Source of the DNA: Kineococcus endophyticus
GTDB lineage: Bacteria; Actinomycetota; Actinomycetes; Actinomycetales; Kineococcaceae
Direction: 5' to 3'
Assembly (NCBI RefSeq): GCF_040796495.1
Contig: NZ_JBFNQN010000020.1
Span: 1 to 64,000 of the forward strand
Length of the DNA stretch: 64,000 nt
Below, in pieces: positions 38,128 to 41,797 of this stretch (position 1 is its first letter; the number at the start of each line of letters is the position of its first letter). Under the pieces are notes generated by a model that made no database searches, was not told the origin of the DNA, and worked only from the letters and a program-made list of their open reading frames with translations. The translations under genes were made by a program, and so were the position numbers.

Positions 38128-38964
38128 TCAGGACGCCAGGAACTCGAGGAGGACGCGGTTGAACTCCTCGGCGTGGCTGACGTTGAAACCGTGGGGGGCA
38201 CCGGCCACGACGTGCAGCCGGCTGCCCGGAACCGCGACGTGGGTGAGGGCGCCGGAACCCTCGAGCGGGACGACCGCGTCGGAGTCGCCGTGGATGACCA
38301 GGGTCGGCACCGTGACCTTCGGCAGGTCCCCGCGGAAGTCGGTCGTGCCGAAGGACTCCATCGCCTTCAGCGCCGCCGTGTGGTCGGCCTGCTTCGTCAA
38401 CGCGATCGCATCCTGGCGCTGGGCCTCGGTGACCTTCAGGACGCCGTCGACGGAGAAGAAGTTCGTGACGAACCCGTCGTAGAAGGAGTCCTCGTCGGCC
38501 TTCAGGCCGGCCTCCATCTCGTCCGCGAGCTCCTTCGTCAACGGCCCCTGCGGGTTGTCGTCGGTCTTGGCCATGTAGGGCGGCACGGCCGCGGCGAAGA
38601 CGACGCTGTGCAGGCGTCCGGTGCCGTGGTTGCTCACGTACCGCGCCACCTCGCCGCCGCCCATCGAGAAGCCGACGAGGGTGACGTCGCGCAGGTCGAG
38701 CTGCTCCAGGAGGGCGTGCAGGTCCTCGGCCAGGGTGTCGTAGTCGTAGCCGCTGCGGGTCTTGTCGCTGCGGCCGAAACCGCGCCGGTCGTAGGTGACG
38801 ACGCGGTACCCCGCGGCGGCCAGGGCCGGGACCTGCTCCGACCACGACGCGCCGGACAGCGGCCAGCCGTGGATCAGCACGACGGGACGACCGCTCCCCC
38901 CGGTGTCGTCGACGTGCAGGTTCGTGTCCTTGAACAGTCCGTGGTGGGCCGTGACCTCGGTCAT
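38128..38964 (-). CDS. Alpha/beta hydrolase (non-haem chloroperoxidase-like)
   Basis: A 278-residue alpha/beta hydrolase. The nucleophile is Ser100 in VGFSMGGGEVARY, the oxyanion region is HGWPLSGASW, the acid Asp is in IHGDSDAVVP, and the His is in GAPHGFN. YDRRGFGRSDKTRSGYDYDTLAEDLHALL is the typical region of bacterial cofactor-free haloperoxidase/esterase members. These enzymes are esterases in practice; perhydrolysis is a side reaction. It reads in the same direction as the formaldehyde dehydrogenase gene downstream, separated by a 100-base gap with a hairpin. Confidence 0.92.
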   Translation of the reverse strand: MTEVTAHHGLFKDTNLHVDDTGGSGRPVVLIHGWPLSGASWSEQVPALAAAGYRVVTYDRRGFGRSDKTRSGYDYDTLAEDLHALLEQLDLRDVTLVGFSMGGGEVARYVSNHGTGRLHSVVFAAAVPPYMAKTDDNPQGPLTKELADEMEAGLKADEDSFYDGFVTNFFSVDGVLKVTEAQRQDAIALTKQADHTAALKAMESFGTTDFRGDLPKVTVPTLVIHGDSDAVVPLEGSGALTHVAVPGSRLHVVAGAPHGFNVSHAEEFNRVLLEFLAS

Positions 38965-39097
38965 CCTGGTTCCTCCAGATGGGTGGGCGGTCAGTGCGGG
39001 TCTCCCCGTCGCCGGGGTCGACGCTACGAAGGCGGTGGCGGGTCCGCGCGCTGAAACCTGCGGTCGTGCACGGAACGCGGTCTGGTTGGCTGGCCCC

Positions 39098-39619
39098 GTG
39101 CGCGCCGTCTTCCCCGCTCTGCCGTCCGACCCGCCCGCCACCTGGGGGCCCGCCAGGACCGAGGACGGCGCGGCGATCGCCGAGCTGCGCGCCGTCGTCC
39201 TGCGGCCGAGCCTGGAACGTCTGGACAGGTACGACGACGTCCGGGTCCGGCAGAGGTTCCTGTCCTCCTGGTCGCCCGAGCGCACCCGCGTCCTCGCCGG
39301 CCCGGACGGCACGGTGGGGTCCCTCGCCCTGCGTCCGGCGGACGACGGGGTGTGGCTCGAGCACTTCTACCTCGACCCCTCGCTGCAGGGCCGGGGTCTG
39401 GGCACGCGCGTCCTGCGGGCCGTCACGGGGCAGGCGGACCGCACGGGGACCCTCCTGCGCCTCGACGTCCTGCGGGGCAGCGACGCCCGCCGCCTGTACG
39501 AGCGGCACGGTTTCGTCCTCGACCACGAGGACCCCGTCGACGTGTTCCTCCGCCGCGACCCCGGACCCGGAATCTCCTCGACGGGGCGGCCGGCCGTGGG
39601 TACCGTCGAGGGGTGCTGA
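39098..39619 (+). CDS. GNAT-family N-acetyltransferase
   Basis: A 173-residue acetyl-CoA-dependent transferase. The GNAT core is visible: a beta strand VGSLALRPADDGVWLEHFYLDP, then the CoA pyrophosphate loop QGRGLGTRVL (motif A), and RRLYERHGFVLDHEDPVDVFL (motif B). The acceptor is unknown. The GTG start at 39098 has a weak -10-like box 6 bases earlier. Its last 7 bases overlap the Trp leader peptide of the following trpS transcript, so the promoter of that transcript lies inside this coding sequence. Confidence 0.88.
   Translation: MRAVFPALPSDPPATWGPARTEDGAAIAELRAVVLRPSLERLDRYDDVRVRQRFLSSWSPERTRVLAGPDGTVGSLALRPADDGVWLEHFYLDPSLQGRGLGTRVLRAVTGQADRTGTLLRLDVLRGSDARRLYERHGFVLDHEDPVDVFLRRDPGPGISSTGRPAVGTVEGC
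39601..39606 (+). promoter_or_regulatory. -10 box of the trpS leader transcript
   Basis: TACCGT (TANNNT) lies exactly 6 bases before GTG 39613, predicting transcription from the first base of the leader peptide. CTCGAC at 39577-39582 is a possible -35 with an 18-base spacer. The promoter is inside the 3' end of the GNAT gene. Confidence 0.5.
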
Positions 39620-39651
39620 CGATCCCGCGCACCGGGTGGCAGCCGCTGTAG
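39613..39651 (+). CDS. Trp leader peptide (12 codons) of trpS
   Basis: GTG then codons for VLTIPRTGWQPL and a TAG stop. The single Trp codon (39637-39639) is followed three codons later by the stop, which forms the 3-base loop of a perfect 10-base-pair hairpin. A ribosome waiting for Trp-tRNA would cover the left arm of that hairpin. There is no ribosome binding site, but the -10 box geometry fits a leaderless message. The peptide has no other expected function. Confidence 0.65.
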   Translation: MLTIPRTGWQPL

Positions 39652-39744
39652 CAGCGGCTGCGACGACCACCTGTCCCCAGCCGCCCACGGCGGCTCCGGG
39701 CAGTGCGACGTCCCGGGGCCGGGCGGTGGGCGGCGTCCACCACC
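39639..39744 (+). ncRNA. Ribosome-mediated Trp attenuator of trpS
   Basis: Four RNA arms: arm 1 GCAGCCGCTG (39639-39648), arm 2 CAGCGGCTGC (39652-39661), arm 3 AGCCGCC (39679-39685), arm 4 GGCGGCT (39689-39695). Arms 1:2 form a perfect 10-pair hairpin with the leader stop codon as loop; arms 3:4 form a 7-pair hairpin; and GCGGCTG of arm 2 (39654-39660) pairs with CAGCCGC (39678-39684). This is the pause / antiterminator / terminator logic of amino-acid attenuators. No T-tract follows 3:4. Arm 3 (39681-39687) can also pair with 39727-39733, and GGTGG with CCACC occurs just before the trpS ribosome site, so control could be at translation. Confidence 0.65.
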
Positions 39745-39758
39745 TCCAGGAGCACCCC

Positions 39759-40847
39759 GTGTCCCACCCCTCCACCTCCCTCGAGAACGCCCTGCGCCGC
39801 AGCGCGGAACTGCACGCGCAGGTGCACGCCGATCCCGGCCGGTTCCGCGTCGTGACCGGCGACCGCCCGACCGGCCCCCTCCACCTCGGCCACCTGCTGG
39901 GAACCCTGGCCAACCGCGTCGCGCTGCAGCGCAGCGGGGTCGAGGTGTTCGTGGTCATCGCCGACCTGCAGGTCAGCACCGACCGCGACGATCCCGGTGA
40001 CGTCCGCGGGAACGTCCGCGAGGTCCTGCTCGACAACCTGGCTGCCGGGCTGGAACAGGCGACGAGGACGGAGGCCGGCGGCGCTCCCGTGTTCGTGCAC
40101 AGCGCCGTCCCGGCCCTCAACGAACTCCTGCTGCCGTTCCTGGCGCTCGTCACGGTCGCGGAACTGCAGCGCAACCCCACGGTGCGGGCCGAGGCGGCCG
40201 CCGCCCGGGAACGCGGGGCTCGCCGGGGCGTCAGCGGTCTGCTGCTCACCTACCCCGTCCACCAGGCCGCCGACGTCCTGTCCTGCGGTGCGAACCTCGT
40301 CCCCGTGGGGCAGGACCAGCTGCCGCACCTGGAGGTGGCGCGGACGGTCGCCCGGCGGTTCAACGACCGGTACGGGGCAGGAGGACCCCTGCTGACCGAA
40401 CCGGAGGCGCTGCTGTCGGCGGCGCCCCTGCTCCTGGGGACCGACGGCCGGAAGATGAGCAAGAGCGGCGGCAACGCGATCGCCTTGCGCGCCGGGGAGG
40501 ACGAGACGGCCCGGCTGGTCCGGTCGGCGACGACGGACGGGGAGCGACGCATCACCTACGAGCCGGCCCGCCGCCCCGAGGTCGCGAACCTCCTGCTGAC
40601 GGGTGCGCTGTGCTCGGGCACCACACCGGAGGCCCTGGCCGAGGAGGTCGGCGACGGCGGTGCGGCGCGTCTCAAGGCCGTCGTCACCGACGCCGTCAAC
40701 GAGCACCTGCGTCCCCTGCGCCGGCGGCGCCGGGAGCTCGCGGGCGAGGAGGACCACCTGCGGGCCGTGCTCGCCGCGGGCGCCCGGCGGGCGAACGCCG
40801 AGGCGGGGCGGACGCTGGCGCGGGTCCTGGCCGCCACCGGGGCGTGA
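39759..40847 (+). CDS. trpS: Tryptophanyl-tRNA synthetase
   Basis: A 362-residue class I synthetase that charges tRNA-Trp. The HIGH-like motif lies in GDRPTGPLHLGH (34-45) and KMSKS at 232-236, with the surrounding LLGTDGRKMSKSGGNAI. VEVFVVIADLQVSTDRDDP and VPVGQDQLPHLEVAR are typical of the TrpRS group that includes the auxiliary, indolmycin-tolerant Streptomyces enzymes. AGGAG lies 6 bases before the GTG at 39759. The 108-base leader after the leader peptide contains an attenuator. Known precedent: the Streptomyces coelicolor auxiliary trpS1 is regulated by ribosome-mediated attenuation. Whether this is the only TrpRS of the organism cannot be told. Confidence 0.93.
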   Translation: MSHPSTSLENALRRSAELHAQVHADPGRFRVVTGDRPTGPLHLGHLLGTLANRVALQRSGVEVFVVIADLQVSTDRDDPGDVRGNVREVLLDNLAAGLEQATRTEAGGAPVFVHSAVPALNELLLPFLALVTVAELQRNPTVRAEAAAARERGARRGVSGLLLTYPVHQAADVLSCGANLVPVGQDQLPHLEVARTVARRFNDRYGAGGPLLTEPEALLSAAPLLLGTDGRKMSKSGGNAIALRAGEDETARLVRSATTDGERRITYEPARRPEVANLLLTGALCSGTTPEALAEEVGDGGAARLKAVVTDAVNEHLRPLRRRRRELAGEEDHLRAVLAAGARRANAEAGRTLARVLAATGA

Positions 40848-40906: not shown

Positions 40907-41797
40907 GTGACCCGCCGCCAGCTCCAGCAGTTCCTCGCCGTGCTCGAGCACGGCAGCCTGGCGCGGGCGGCCGCGGCCACCGGGACGGCGCCCGCGAGCC
41001 TCGCCCAGTCCCTCACGGCCCTCGAACGCGACGTGGGGGCCGAGCTCGTGCACCGGCTCCCGCACGGGACCGTGCCGACGGGAGCGGGGGTCGCCTTCGC
41101 GCCGCACGCGCGGGCCACGCTGCGGGCCCTGTCGGCCGACGTCGTCGCGGACCCCGCAGGCAGCGAGCGGCTCCGCGGCGACCTCGACCTCGTCGCGGAC
41201 CCGGTCCTGGCCGTCGACCCGGGGGCCGCGTTGCTGGGCAGGTTCCGCCGGGCCCACCCCGACGTCCGCGTGCGCTTCGACGTGCCCGACGACGCCGAGG
41301 AGGTGCCGCGCCACCTCGCCGACGGGCGCGCCGAGGTGGCCCTGACGTACCTGCCGCTCGACCAGCCCCTCGACGGCCCGCACCGGCGTCGTACCGAGGT
41401 CCTGTCCCTGGGGTCGCAGGAGCTCCACCTCGTGCTGCCGCCGGGGGCGGAGGACCTGCCCGACCCGCTCGCCCTCGACCGGCTCGGCCCGTGCGACGTG
41501 GTCGACGTCCCCGGCAGCCGGTGGCGGGAGGTCGTGCGCGCCCGGGTGTCCGGAGGGGGCCCGAGTGGTGGGGGCTGGCGGGTCGCGGTCCGCACGGTGC
41601 ACCGCGAGGCCGTCGTCCCGCTCGTCCTGGCCGGCGCGGGGGTCGCGTTCACGGCGGGGGCGGCGTGCCGCTGGGCGGCGCAGCAGGGGGCCGTGGTGCG
41701 CCGGCTGGACCCGCCGCTGCGCCTGGAGGTGGGCCTCGTCCACCACGGGCCGGCCTCCCCCGTCGTCGCGGCCCTGCTGCGGACGGCGCGGCCGTGA
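40907..41797 (+). CDS. LysR-family transcriptional regulator
   Basis: A 296-residue LysR-type regulator. The winged helix-turn-helix is at the very N-terminus (RRQLQQFLAVLEHGSLARAAAATGTAPASLAQSLTALERDVGAELVHR), followed by the effector domain with two subdomains. GTG at 40907 gives the standard LysR start. The gene overlaps the next LysR gene by 4 bases (GTGA), so both are made together. The target genes are unknown; the next genes on the other strand form an acyl-CoA operon. Confidence 0.88.
   Translation: MTRRQLQQFLAVLEHGSLARAAAATGTAPASLAQSLTALERDVGAELVHRLPHGTVPTGAGVAFAPHARATLRALSADVVADPAGSERLRGDLDLVADPVLAVDPGAALLGRFRRAHPDVRVRFDVPDDAEEVPRHLADGRAEVALTYLPLDQPLDGPHRRRTEVLSLGSQELHLVLPPGAEDLPDPLALDRLGPCDVVDVPGSRWREVVRARVSGGGPSGGGWRVAVRTVHREAVVPLVLAGAGVAFTAGAACRWAAQQGAVVRRLDPPLRLEVGLVHHGPASPVVAALLRTARP

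Follow-up and report, generated by a model that had tools for sequence, protein, structure and literature searches.

A predicted ribosome-mediated tryptophan attenuator with a candidate fifth arm upstream of an auxiliary trpS gene in Kineococcus endophyticus

Introduction

How might a leader peptide with a single Trp codon control an auxiliary tryptophanyl-tRNA synthetase gene, trpS, when the hairpin behind the leader carries no T-tract? This question is raised by a locus within a 64,000-nucleotide stretch of Kineococcus endophyticus DNA (contig NZ_JBFNQN010000020.1, positions 1 to 64,000; hereafter the window), where the original prediction had placed a Trp leader peptide and a four-arm attenuator before trpS. 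Comparison with related loci leads us to a reading that we consider likely, in which a ribosome-mediated attenuator, translated from a leaderless mRNA, controls trpS and has an additional, fifth arm close to the ribosome-binding site of the gene. The elements of the switch, trpS and the ORF upstream of it all lie on the forward strand.

The closest studied relative is reportedly Streptomyces coelicolor trpS1, which is said to encode an auxiliary, indolmycin-resistant tryptophanyl-tRNA synthetase. The title of Vecchione and Sello (2010), as given in the reference list of PMC4787780, announces ribosome-mediated transcriptional attenuation of an auxiliary trpS. In Streptomyces lividans TK24, according to the relevant excerpt of PMC8079986, the leader trpL2 of trpS (SLIV_21110, presumably the auxiliary copy) is leaderless, has one Trp codon (MMTRTCTQLWRAA, then stop) and is followed by two hairpins without a uridine-rich stretch. 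An excerpt of Seliverstov et al. 2005 (PMC1262725) gives predicted classical attenuators before trp operons, leuS and S. avermitilis trpS2, with poly-U tracts stated for the trp operons and leuS; the same source raises Rho for cys operons, and termination is called unclear for some leaders in the excerpt of PMC8079986. Whether actinomycete attenuators that lack a T-tract act through transcription, Rho or translation is a general issue, for which the covarying helix described below gives a testable handle.

Results and Discussion

The leader peptide open reading frame (ORF; MLTIPRTGWQPL and stop, 39613-39651) begins with GTG at 39613-39615 and comprises 12 codons, including one Trp codon, TGG, at 39637-39639. 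Six bases separate the GTG from a TACCGT −10 box (39601-39606), which places the box 12 bases 5' of the leader start. From this spacing the leader start is predicted to be leaderless. Arm 1 (39639-39648), which has the Trp codon at its foot, forms 10 Watson–Crick pairs with arm 2 (39652-39661), and the three-base loop of helix 1:2 is the leader stop codon, TAG (39649-39651). Arm 3 (39678-39685) and its loop (39686-39688) together form a stretch that is the partner of arms 2, 4 and 5. In hairpin 3:4, AGCCGCC (39679-39685) makes seven pairs with GGCGGCT (arm 4, 39689-39695), and in the alternative helix 2:3, GCGGCTG of arm 2 (39654-39660) makes seven pairs with CAGCCGC (39678-39684), so that helices 1:2, 2:3 and 3:4 are mutually exclusive. 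This anatomy had been proposed in the original prediction and is confirmed base for base. No T-tract follows 39695 in the window sequence, and hairpin 3:4 thus does not have the form of a classical terminator.

Arm 5 (GGTGGGCGGCG, 39725-39735) lies further downstream and had been missed. Its bases 39726-39734 are the exact complement of arm 3 and its loop (39680-39688) over nine Watson–Crick pairs, and it sits 12 bases 5' of the trpS Shine–Dalgarno (SD) sequence AGGAG (39748-39752), itself followed by the trpS start codon, GTG, at 39759. As discussed below, we regard arm 5 as a well-supported sequence feature of the relatives, as a plausible functional element, and as plausibly the new part relative to known trpS attenuators. 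A literature search at the level of listings, abstracts and excerpts, in which Vecchione and Sello 2010 was represented by its title, returned no mention of an arm near a trpS SD, which does not prove that none has been published.

The extreme base composition raises the objection that these are chance hairpins in GC-rich DNA. Fold energy does little to answer it: taken by itself, it is only moderately out of the ordinary for this composition (z −2.12, matched or bettered by 3 of 200 shuffles), and DNA so rich in GC makes it weak evidence. However, a covariance model trained without the window, on four relatives (Cellulomonas telluris and three congeners), finds 39613-39703 at 58.9 bits and E 4.2e-9, the next best place in the 64 kb scoring 17.5 bits (E 0.17), where the E-values are rough by the tool's own statement. 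In 46 leaders of Streptomyces, Actinomadura and Kitasatospora type, which come from other lineages, helix 2:3 is 99.5% paired against at most 61.7% for slid versions, and one of its pairs is exchanged on both sides from G-C to A-U in 18 of the 46; helix 3:4 is 99.3% paired in the same leaders, with two pairs changed on both sides. Together with the recurrence of the layout in 94 of 124 loci, the model match and the covariation of 2:3 refute the chance explanation, to which we give practically no weight. The check for covariation that the original prediction had asked for is thereby answered, the choice between 2:3 and 3:4 is a well supported part of the explanation, and on these comparative grounds the attenuator of the window is judged to be real and of a known kind. 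A search with Rfam gave no match at gathering score in the window and none up to E 1 in 39550-39800, and this applies equally to the T-box models and to Trp_leader, presumably the family of the E. coli type.

The downstream gene (39759-40847) encodes 362 amino acids plus stop and matches TIGR00233 (199 bits; cutoff 176.75) and PF00579. The same genome holds a second trpS, about 36% identical to that of the window. The second type occurs in all 11 searched genomes of the genus, including this one, and the window type in five of the 11, which identifies the window trpS as an auxiliary gene with a patchy distribution in the genus; we infer that the second-type copy is the housekeeping trpS. With mutually exclusive helices, the covariance-model match and a second trpS copy, the earlier assignment of a Trp leader and alternative-pairing attenuator to an auxiliary trpS is supported.

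Related loci were drawn from the best 80 of 488 confirmed matches, 30 loci from the order (25 of them new) and 20 further stretches. Of 396 genomes sampled in the order, 164 carry the gene. From 129 loci, five in which our pattern recognized no HIGH-type motif were dropped (L091, L092, L154, L156 and L159), which left 124. The fifth genus genome with the auxiliary gene (L002) was excluded because its contig stops at trpS. Leaders were sought as short Trp-containing ORFs (7-24 residues allowed), with a TANNNT box required between −15 and −10, and a Trp leader of this layout was found in 94 of the 124 loci; merging two duplicate leader regions left 92 distinct leaders. The remaining 30 loci yielded no such leader by this search (for example L054, L066 and L141-L146), and those without one include Brachybacterium and Actinomyces/Schaalia-type loci.

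The −10 box lies at −12 in 66 and at −13 in 26 of the 92 distinct leaders, and at no other position; as background, the 45 positions from −16 to −60 hold five TANNNT matches in all 92 sequences together. Leaderless translation of the trpS leader is therefore very probably general, that is, the leaderless layout would be the rule among the relatives examined and not a quirk of one genome. Two Trp codons are found in 67 leaders, three in 16 and one in nine, and relative to the predicted first hairpin the stop codon lies in the loop in 65, elsewhere inside the stem-loop in nine, or at or beyond the hairpin end in 18. These counts, together with the S. lividans description, change the standing of features that had been listed as novel. 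The single Trp codon and the stop codon in the loop are not peculiar to the window, the former being in print for trpL2 (PMC8079986, excerpt). The leaderless start and the lack of a T-tract hold as descriptions of the window but not as novelties, since the −10 spacing is general, T-poor tails are usual in the order group defined below, and both features appear in the same excerpt; three of the five listed novelties are in print for a relative.

Leader lengths range from 10 to 17 residues. The congeneric leaders before trpS read MLTIPCTRWQSL, MLTIPCTWWQSL and MSTTPCTGWQSP, and that of Cellulomonas telluris reads MLTIPCTWWQPL. The residues after Trp vary among relatives (WQPL, WQSL, WQSP, WWPS, WWRSS, WWWLPPQP), so that WQPL, whose conservation had been proposed as a check, is not conserved. 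We first considered that an ancestral WW had lost its first Trp to give the single Trp of the window. Relatives with TGWWP point rather to a replacement of the second Trp by Gln, in which case the Trp at the first position in L004 and C. telluris (L017) may be secondary.

This variability also bears on what the leader senses. TnaC, which is longer than 10-17 residues, arrests the ribosome in the presence of free tryptophan by means of a conserved Trp and conserved C-terminal residues, and the trpS leaders could likewise sense free tryptophan through the nascent peptide rather than Trp-tRNA through codon occupancy. Some constraint on the peptide is hinted at by 39 of the 92 leaders, in which Cys stands three residues ahead of the first Trp and is written with either of its codons (TGC 25, TGT 14). 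However, this Cys is replaced by Arg in the window leader, the residues after Trp vary where a conserved C-terminal stretch would be expected, and the leaders are shorter than TnaC, which makes free-tryptophan sensing very improbable.

For the analysis of arm 5 we defined an order group of 38 loci, a grouping of our own that combines same-order loci, named genera that we take to belong to the window's order, L032 (Streptosporangiaceae) and L080 (Sphaerisporangium). Loci without an assignable arm 3, arm 4 or SD were dropped test by test, which left, of the 94 leaders, 85 for dinucleotide shuffles, 84 for the swap, SD-blocking and duplex-energy tests, 83 for T counts and 80 for SD accessibility in the stalled and at-stop states. 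Complementarity between arms 3 and 5 recurs in relatives with other letters, for example as GAGCTGCCCGCCG/CGGTGGGCGGCTC (L134), GAGCTGCGCGCC/GGTGCGTGGCTC (L021) and GAGCTGCCCTC/GAGGGCGGCTC (L041). Compared with dinucleotide shuffles, helix 3:5 has a mean z of −2.26 over 85 loci (one duplicate), 57 of which rank at 5 in 100 or better; in the window, 4 of 100 shuffles are as good.

A plain MAFFT alignment of 27 hand-chosen leaders, from which the window, the weak arm-5 cases L049 and L135 and the diverged leaders were left out, has 91.9% of its 270 3:5 cells paired, against 36-49% in slid versions and with 0 of 500 shuffles as high. Five of the 10 pairs show changes on both sides, with 19 further pair types. 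When hairpin 3:4 is folded locally, it leaves the arm-3 base unpaired in 13 of the 19 both-sided cells, so that pairing to arm 4 does not explain those. When L049, L135 and the diverged leaders are added (39 leaders, still without L153, L164, L165 and L169, and with several diverged leaders and L028 misaligned in arm 5), 84.7% of 379 cells are paired and 19 cells are both-sided, slid versions reaching 39-52%.

In a lineage-swap test, arm 3 was paired with pre-SD segments of other lineages (84 loci, 20 lineages, 20000 permutations). Pairing with the arm-5 segment of the own lineage averages −19.38 kcal/mol and with that of others −15.93 kcal/mol, a difference reached in 0 of 20000 permutations; an earlier version with 33 loci in nine groups gave 2 of 20000. 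The positive control, arm 2 with arm 3, gave 29 of 20000, and the corresponding counts were 1031 for the first 13 leader bases, 15791 for arm 3 with the first 40 bases of trpS and 17153 for arm 2 with the pre-SD segment. Arm 3 with a more upstream segment, which includes part of arm 4, gave 0 of 20000. The arm 3/arm 5 difference is about 2.5 times that of the largest non-null control free of arm 4 or arm 3 partners. We accordingly regard helix 3:5 as a genuine competitor of 3:4, for the order group at the least.

A possible output of this helix is suggested by three features of the order group. In 37 of its 38 loci no more than 12 bases separate the end of arm 5 from the SD; only one of the 38 has at least four T in the eight bases after hairpin 3:4, compared with 19 of 45 other loci; and in the 3:4 state the SD opens further when arm 5 is blocked than when a neighboring segment is blocked in 28 of 38 loci, and less far in four. 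Arm-5 position, T-poor tails and arm-5 blocking together suggest a translational output stage in this group. Among all 84 loci of both groups, forced formation of 3:5 increases the predicted accessibility of the SD by over 0.1 in 52 and decreases it in eight.

A mechanism is proposed on this basis. Estimated from the usual ribosome footprint, a ribosome with the Trp codon in its A site would cover the leader to about 39649, which would mask arm 1 and leave arm 2 free, and a ribosome at the stop codon would cover to about 39661, the end of arm 2. With plentiful Trp-tRNA the ribosome would reach the stop codon and mask arm 2, 3:4 would form, and trpS expression would be low. With scarce Trp-tRNA the ribosome would stall at the Trp codon and mask arm 1, and helix 2:3 would withhold arm 3 from 3:4 until arm 5 is made; arm 5 could then capture arm 3 through the loop bases that 2:3 leaves free. 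Since arm 5 is predicted to occlude the trpS SD in the order group as well, formation of 3:5 would open the SD there, and at least part of the control would act on translation, in a lineage in which no T-tract follows hairpin 3:4. In bare duplex energies, with the proviso that 3:5 had the longer stretch to choose from, 3:5 is stronger than 2:3 in 38 of 38 order-group loci and 40 of 46 others, and a hand-over from 2:3 to 3:5 is therefore possible. Both the hand-over to arm 5 and the sign of the effect on trpS are offered as a hypothesis. Its general form, in which arm 3 passes from 2:3 to 3:5 upon stalling and the output is translational where 3:4 lacks a T-tract and transcriptional where the T-tract is kept, is a tentative proposal that we hold possible but somewhat doubtful. 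If true, it would mean that the output stage has been exchanged beneath a conserved, ribosome-read sensor across actinomycetes.

A number of results weigh against the arm-5 mechanism, beginning with helix 3:5 itself. The arm 3 motifs and the 27 leaders were picked after the sequences had been looked at, the five both-sided pairs are matched by 38 of 500 shuffles when 39 leaders are used, and 3:5 is less clear outside the order group (mean z −1.76; swap 122 of 20000). In the 33-locus swap test the own 3:5 was weaker than the swapped mean in six loci (L070, L158, L028, L049, L135 and L155). The swap controls were not all null: reversed arm 3 prefers its own lineage (−16.05 against −14.76 kcal/mol, 18 of 20000), as does arm 1 with the pre-SD segment (−15.39 against −14.05 kcal/mol, 36 of 20000), and composition or shared arm sequences must therefore explain part of the swap effect. 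For the output stage, blocking arm 5 outside the order group opens the SD more in five but less in 19 of 46 loci. Hairpin 3:4 beats 3:5 at equilibrium in 82 of 84 loci, which means that 3:5 needs a kinetic route with 2:3 holding arm 3 first. Predicted SD accessibility does not differ between the stalled and at-stop states (higher when stalled in six and lower in six of 80 loci), and a simple thermodynamic switch at the SD was dropped for this reason. In the 27 leaders a helix between arm 5 and the SD is 84.0% paired compared with 82.0% in shuffles (39 of 500 as high), and 17 of 500 reach its covariation score.

Some of these results fit a purely transcriptional attenuator as in Streptomyces trpS1, in which 3:4 terminates without a T-tract or exposes a Rho site and arm 5 either arises as a by-product because the arms are alike and GC-rich, or serves mRNA stability. 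This explanation is consistent with equal SD accessibility in the two ribosome states and with the non-null swap controls, the closest studied relative is reported as transcriptional in a paper title (Vecchione and Sello 2010), and trpL2 of S. lividans, with two hairpins and no U-stretch, is described as terminating in the excerpt of PMC8079986. However, a by-product would not be expected to covary with arm-3 bases that are unpaired in 3:4, as arm 5 does in 13 of 19 cells, and arm 5 does not duplicate arm 4 in leaders of Cellulosimicrobium/Oerskovia type. We therefore judge a purely transcriptional attenuator unlikely.

A second explanation accepts helix 3:5 but reverses its sign, so that 3:5 would be another OFF form that hinders 30S binding on transcripts escaping termination, and 2:3 would relieve both 3:4 and 3:5. 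The logic is simple, with 2:3 as the sole ON form, arm 5 ends no more than 12 bases from the SD in nearly every order-group locus, and in the window 3:5 lowers predicted SD accessibility. Opposed to this are the predominance of loci in which forced 3:5 opens the SD and the prediction that arm 5 is itself the SD cover in the order group, and an OFF role of 3:5 appears rather unlikely.

The window itself is not the best example of the arm-5 arrangement, and its behavior counts among the points against the hand-over from 2:3 to 3:5. Its SD accessibility falls from 0.36 to 0.22 when 3:5 is forced; with arm 5 blocked it climbs no higher than 0.43, compared with 0.35 for a control segment. This is because the CTCC that pairs with the SD in relatives reads GTCC in the window, where arm 5 has GGCGGCGTCC in place of their GGCTCCC. 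Its minimum-energy fold also depends on the chosen end: 39613-39758 folds with 3:5, and addition of 20 bases of trpS gives 3:4. In the former fold, 3:5 encloses a further hairpin in which 39691-39700 (CGGCTCCGGG), from the arm 4 stretch, pairs with 39711-39720 (CCCGGGGCCG) over 10 pairs, one of them G-U. For experiments it is convenient that the loop and arm-5 bases of the window are open to mutation while the 3:4 stem stays as it is.

In 67 of 80 loci SD accessibility falls below the average of mononucleotide shuffles. A general SD-sequestering hairpin was considered and set aside, as pairing between arm 5 and the SD is hardly above shuffles and poor in the window, and it is kept only within the hypothesis above. 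Near-perfect short inverted repeats over the trpS SD were seen in L132, L136, L157 and L042 (in L136, AGCTCCT..AGGAGCT), where covariation across the 27 leaders is weak. T-tract occurrence does not correlate with the energy difference between 3:5 and 3:4 (Spearman 0.003), and the hand-over energy is not significantly stronger in the order group than elsewhere (p 0.053).

Among known systems, erm leaders are translational attenuators in which stalling on a leader likewise alters access to a downstream SD; their signal is a drug-bound ribosome, whereas the window would respond to Trp-tRNA and add a choice between 3:4 and 3:5. With S. coelicolor trpS1, judged by the title of Vecchione and Sello (2010), the window shares ribosome-mediated attenuation of an auxiliary trpS, beside which its one Trp codon, lack of a T-tract and arm 5 next to the SD can be set. 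S. lividans trpL2 is alike in being leaderless, with one Trp codon, two hairpins and no uridine-rich stretch, but has a different peptide, and section 14, part 1, of PMC8079986 mentions no arm near the SD for it. In the attenuators of the PMC1262725 excerpt, too, a leader peptide and alternative helices precede a gene for an aminoacyl-tRNA synthetase; they are called classical, with poly-U for trp operons and leuS, unlike the window. The LEU element before leuA (same excerpt) resembles the window in that an actinobacterial leader peptide RNA pairs near a downstream SD within alternative structures, but in the LEU element it is the run of leucine codons that pairs with the SD, whereas in the window a separate arm 5 pairs with arm 3.

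The leader and trpS of C. telluris (L017, 1856-2003) are very near those of the window genus, with 71% protein identity, which may reflect a joint transfer of the gene and its leader from one family to another. Cellulomonas humilata is less alike (62% protein identity; leader MSSTTWRRLL).

Upstream lies an ORF with a GNAT domain (38795-39619 as the longest frame; PF13508, 2.5e-10; PF00583, 1.8e-9), which does not belong to the switch. Its 3' end runs over the −10 box and into the first leader codons, the stop codon lying at 39617-39619. In congeners, long open frames also overlap the leader start, as expected in such GC-rich DNA. Directly 3' of trpS lies an ORF for a LysR-type regulator (40907-41794), whose NCBIfam matches are below their cut-offs.

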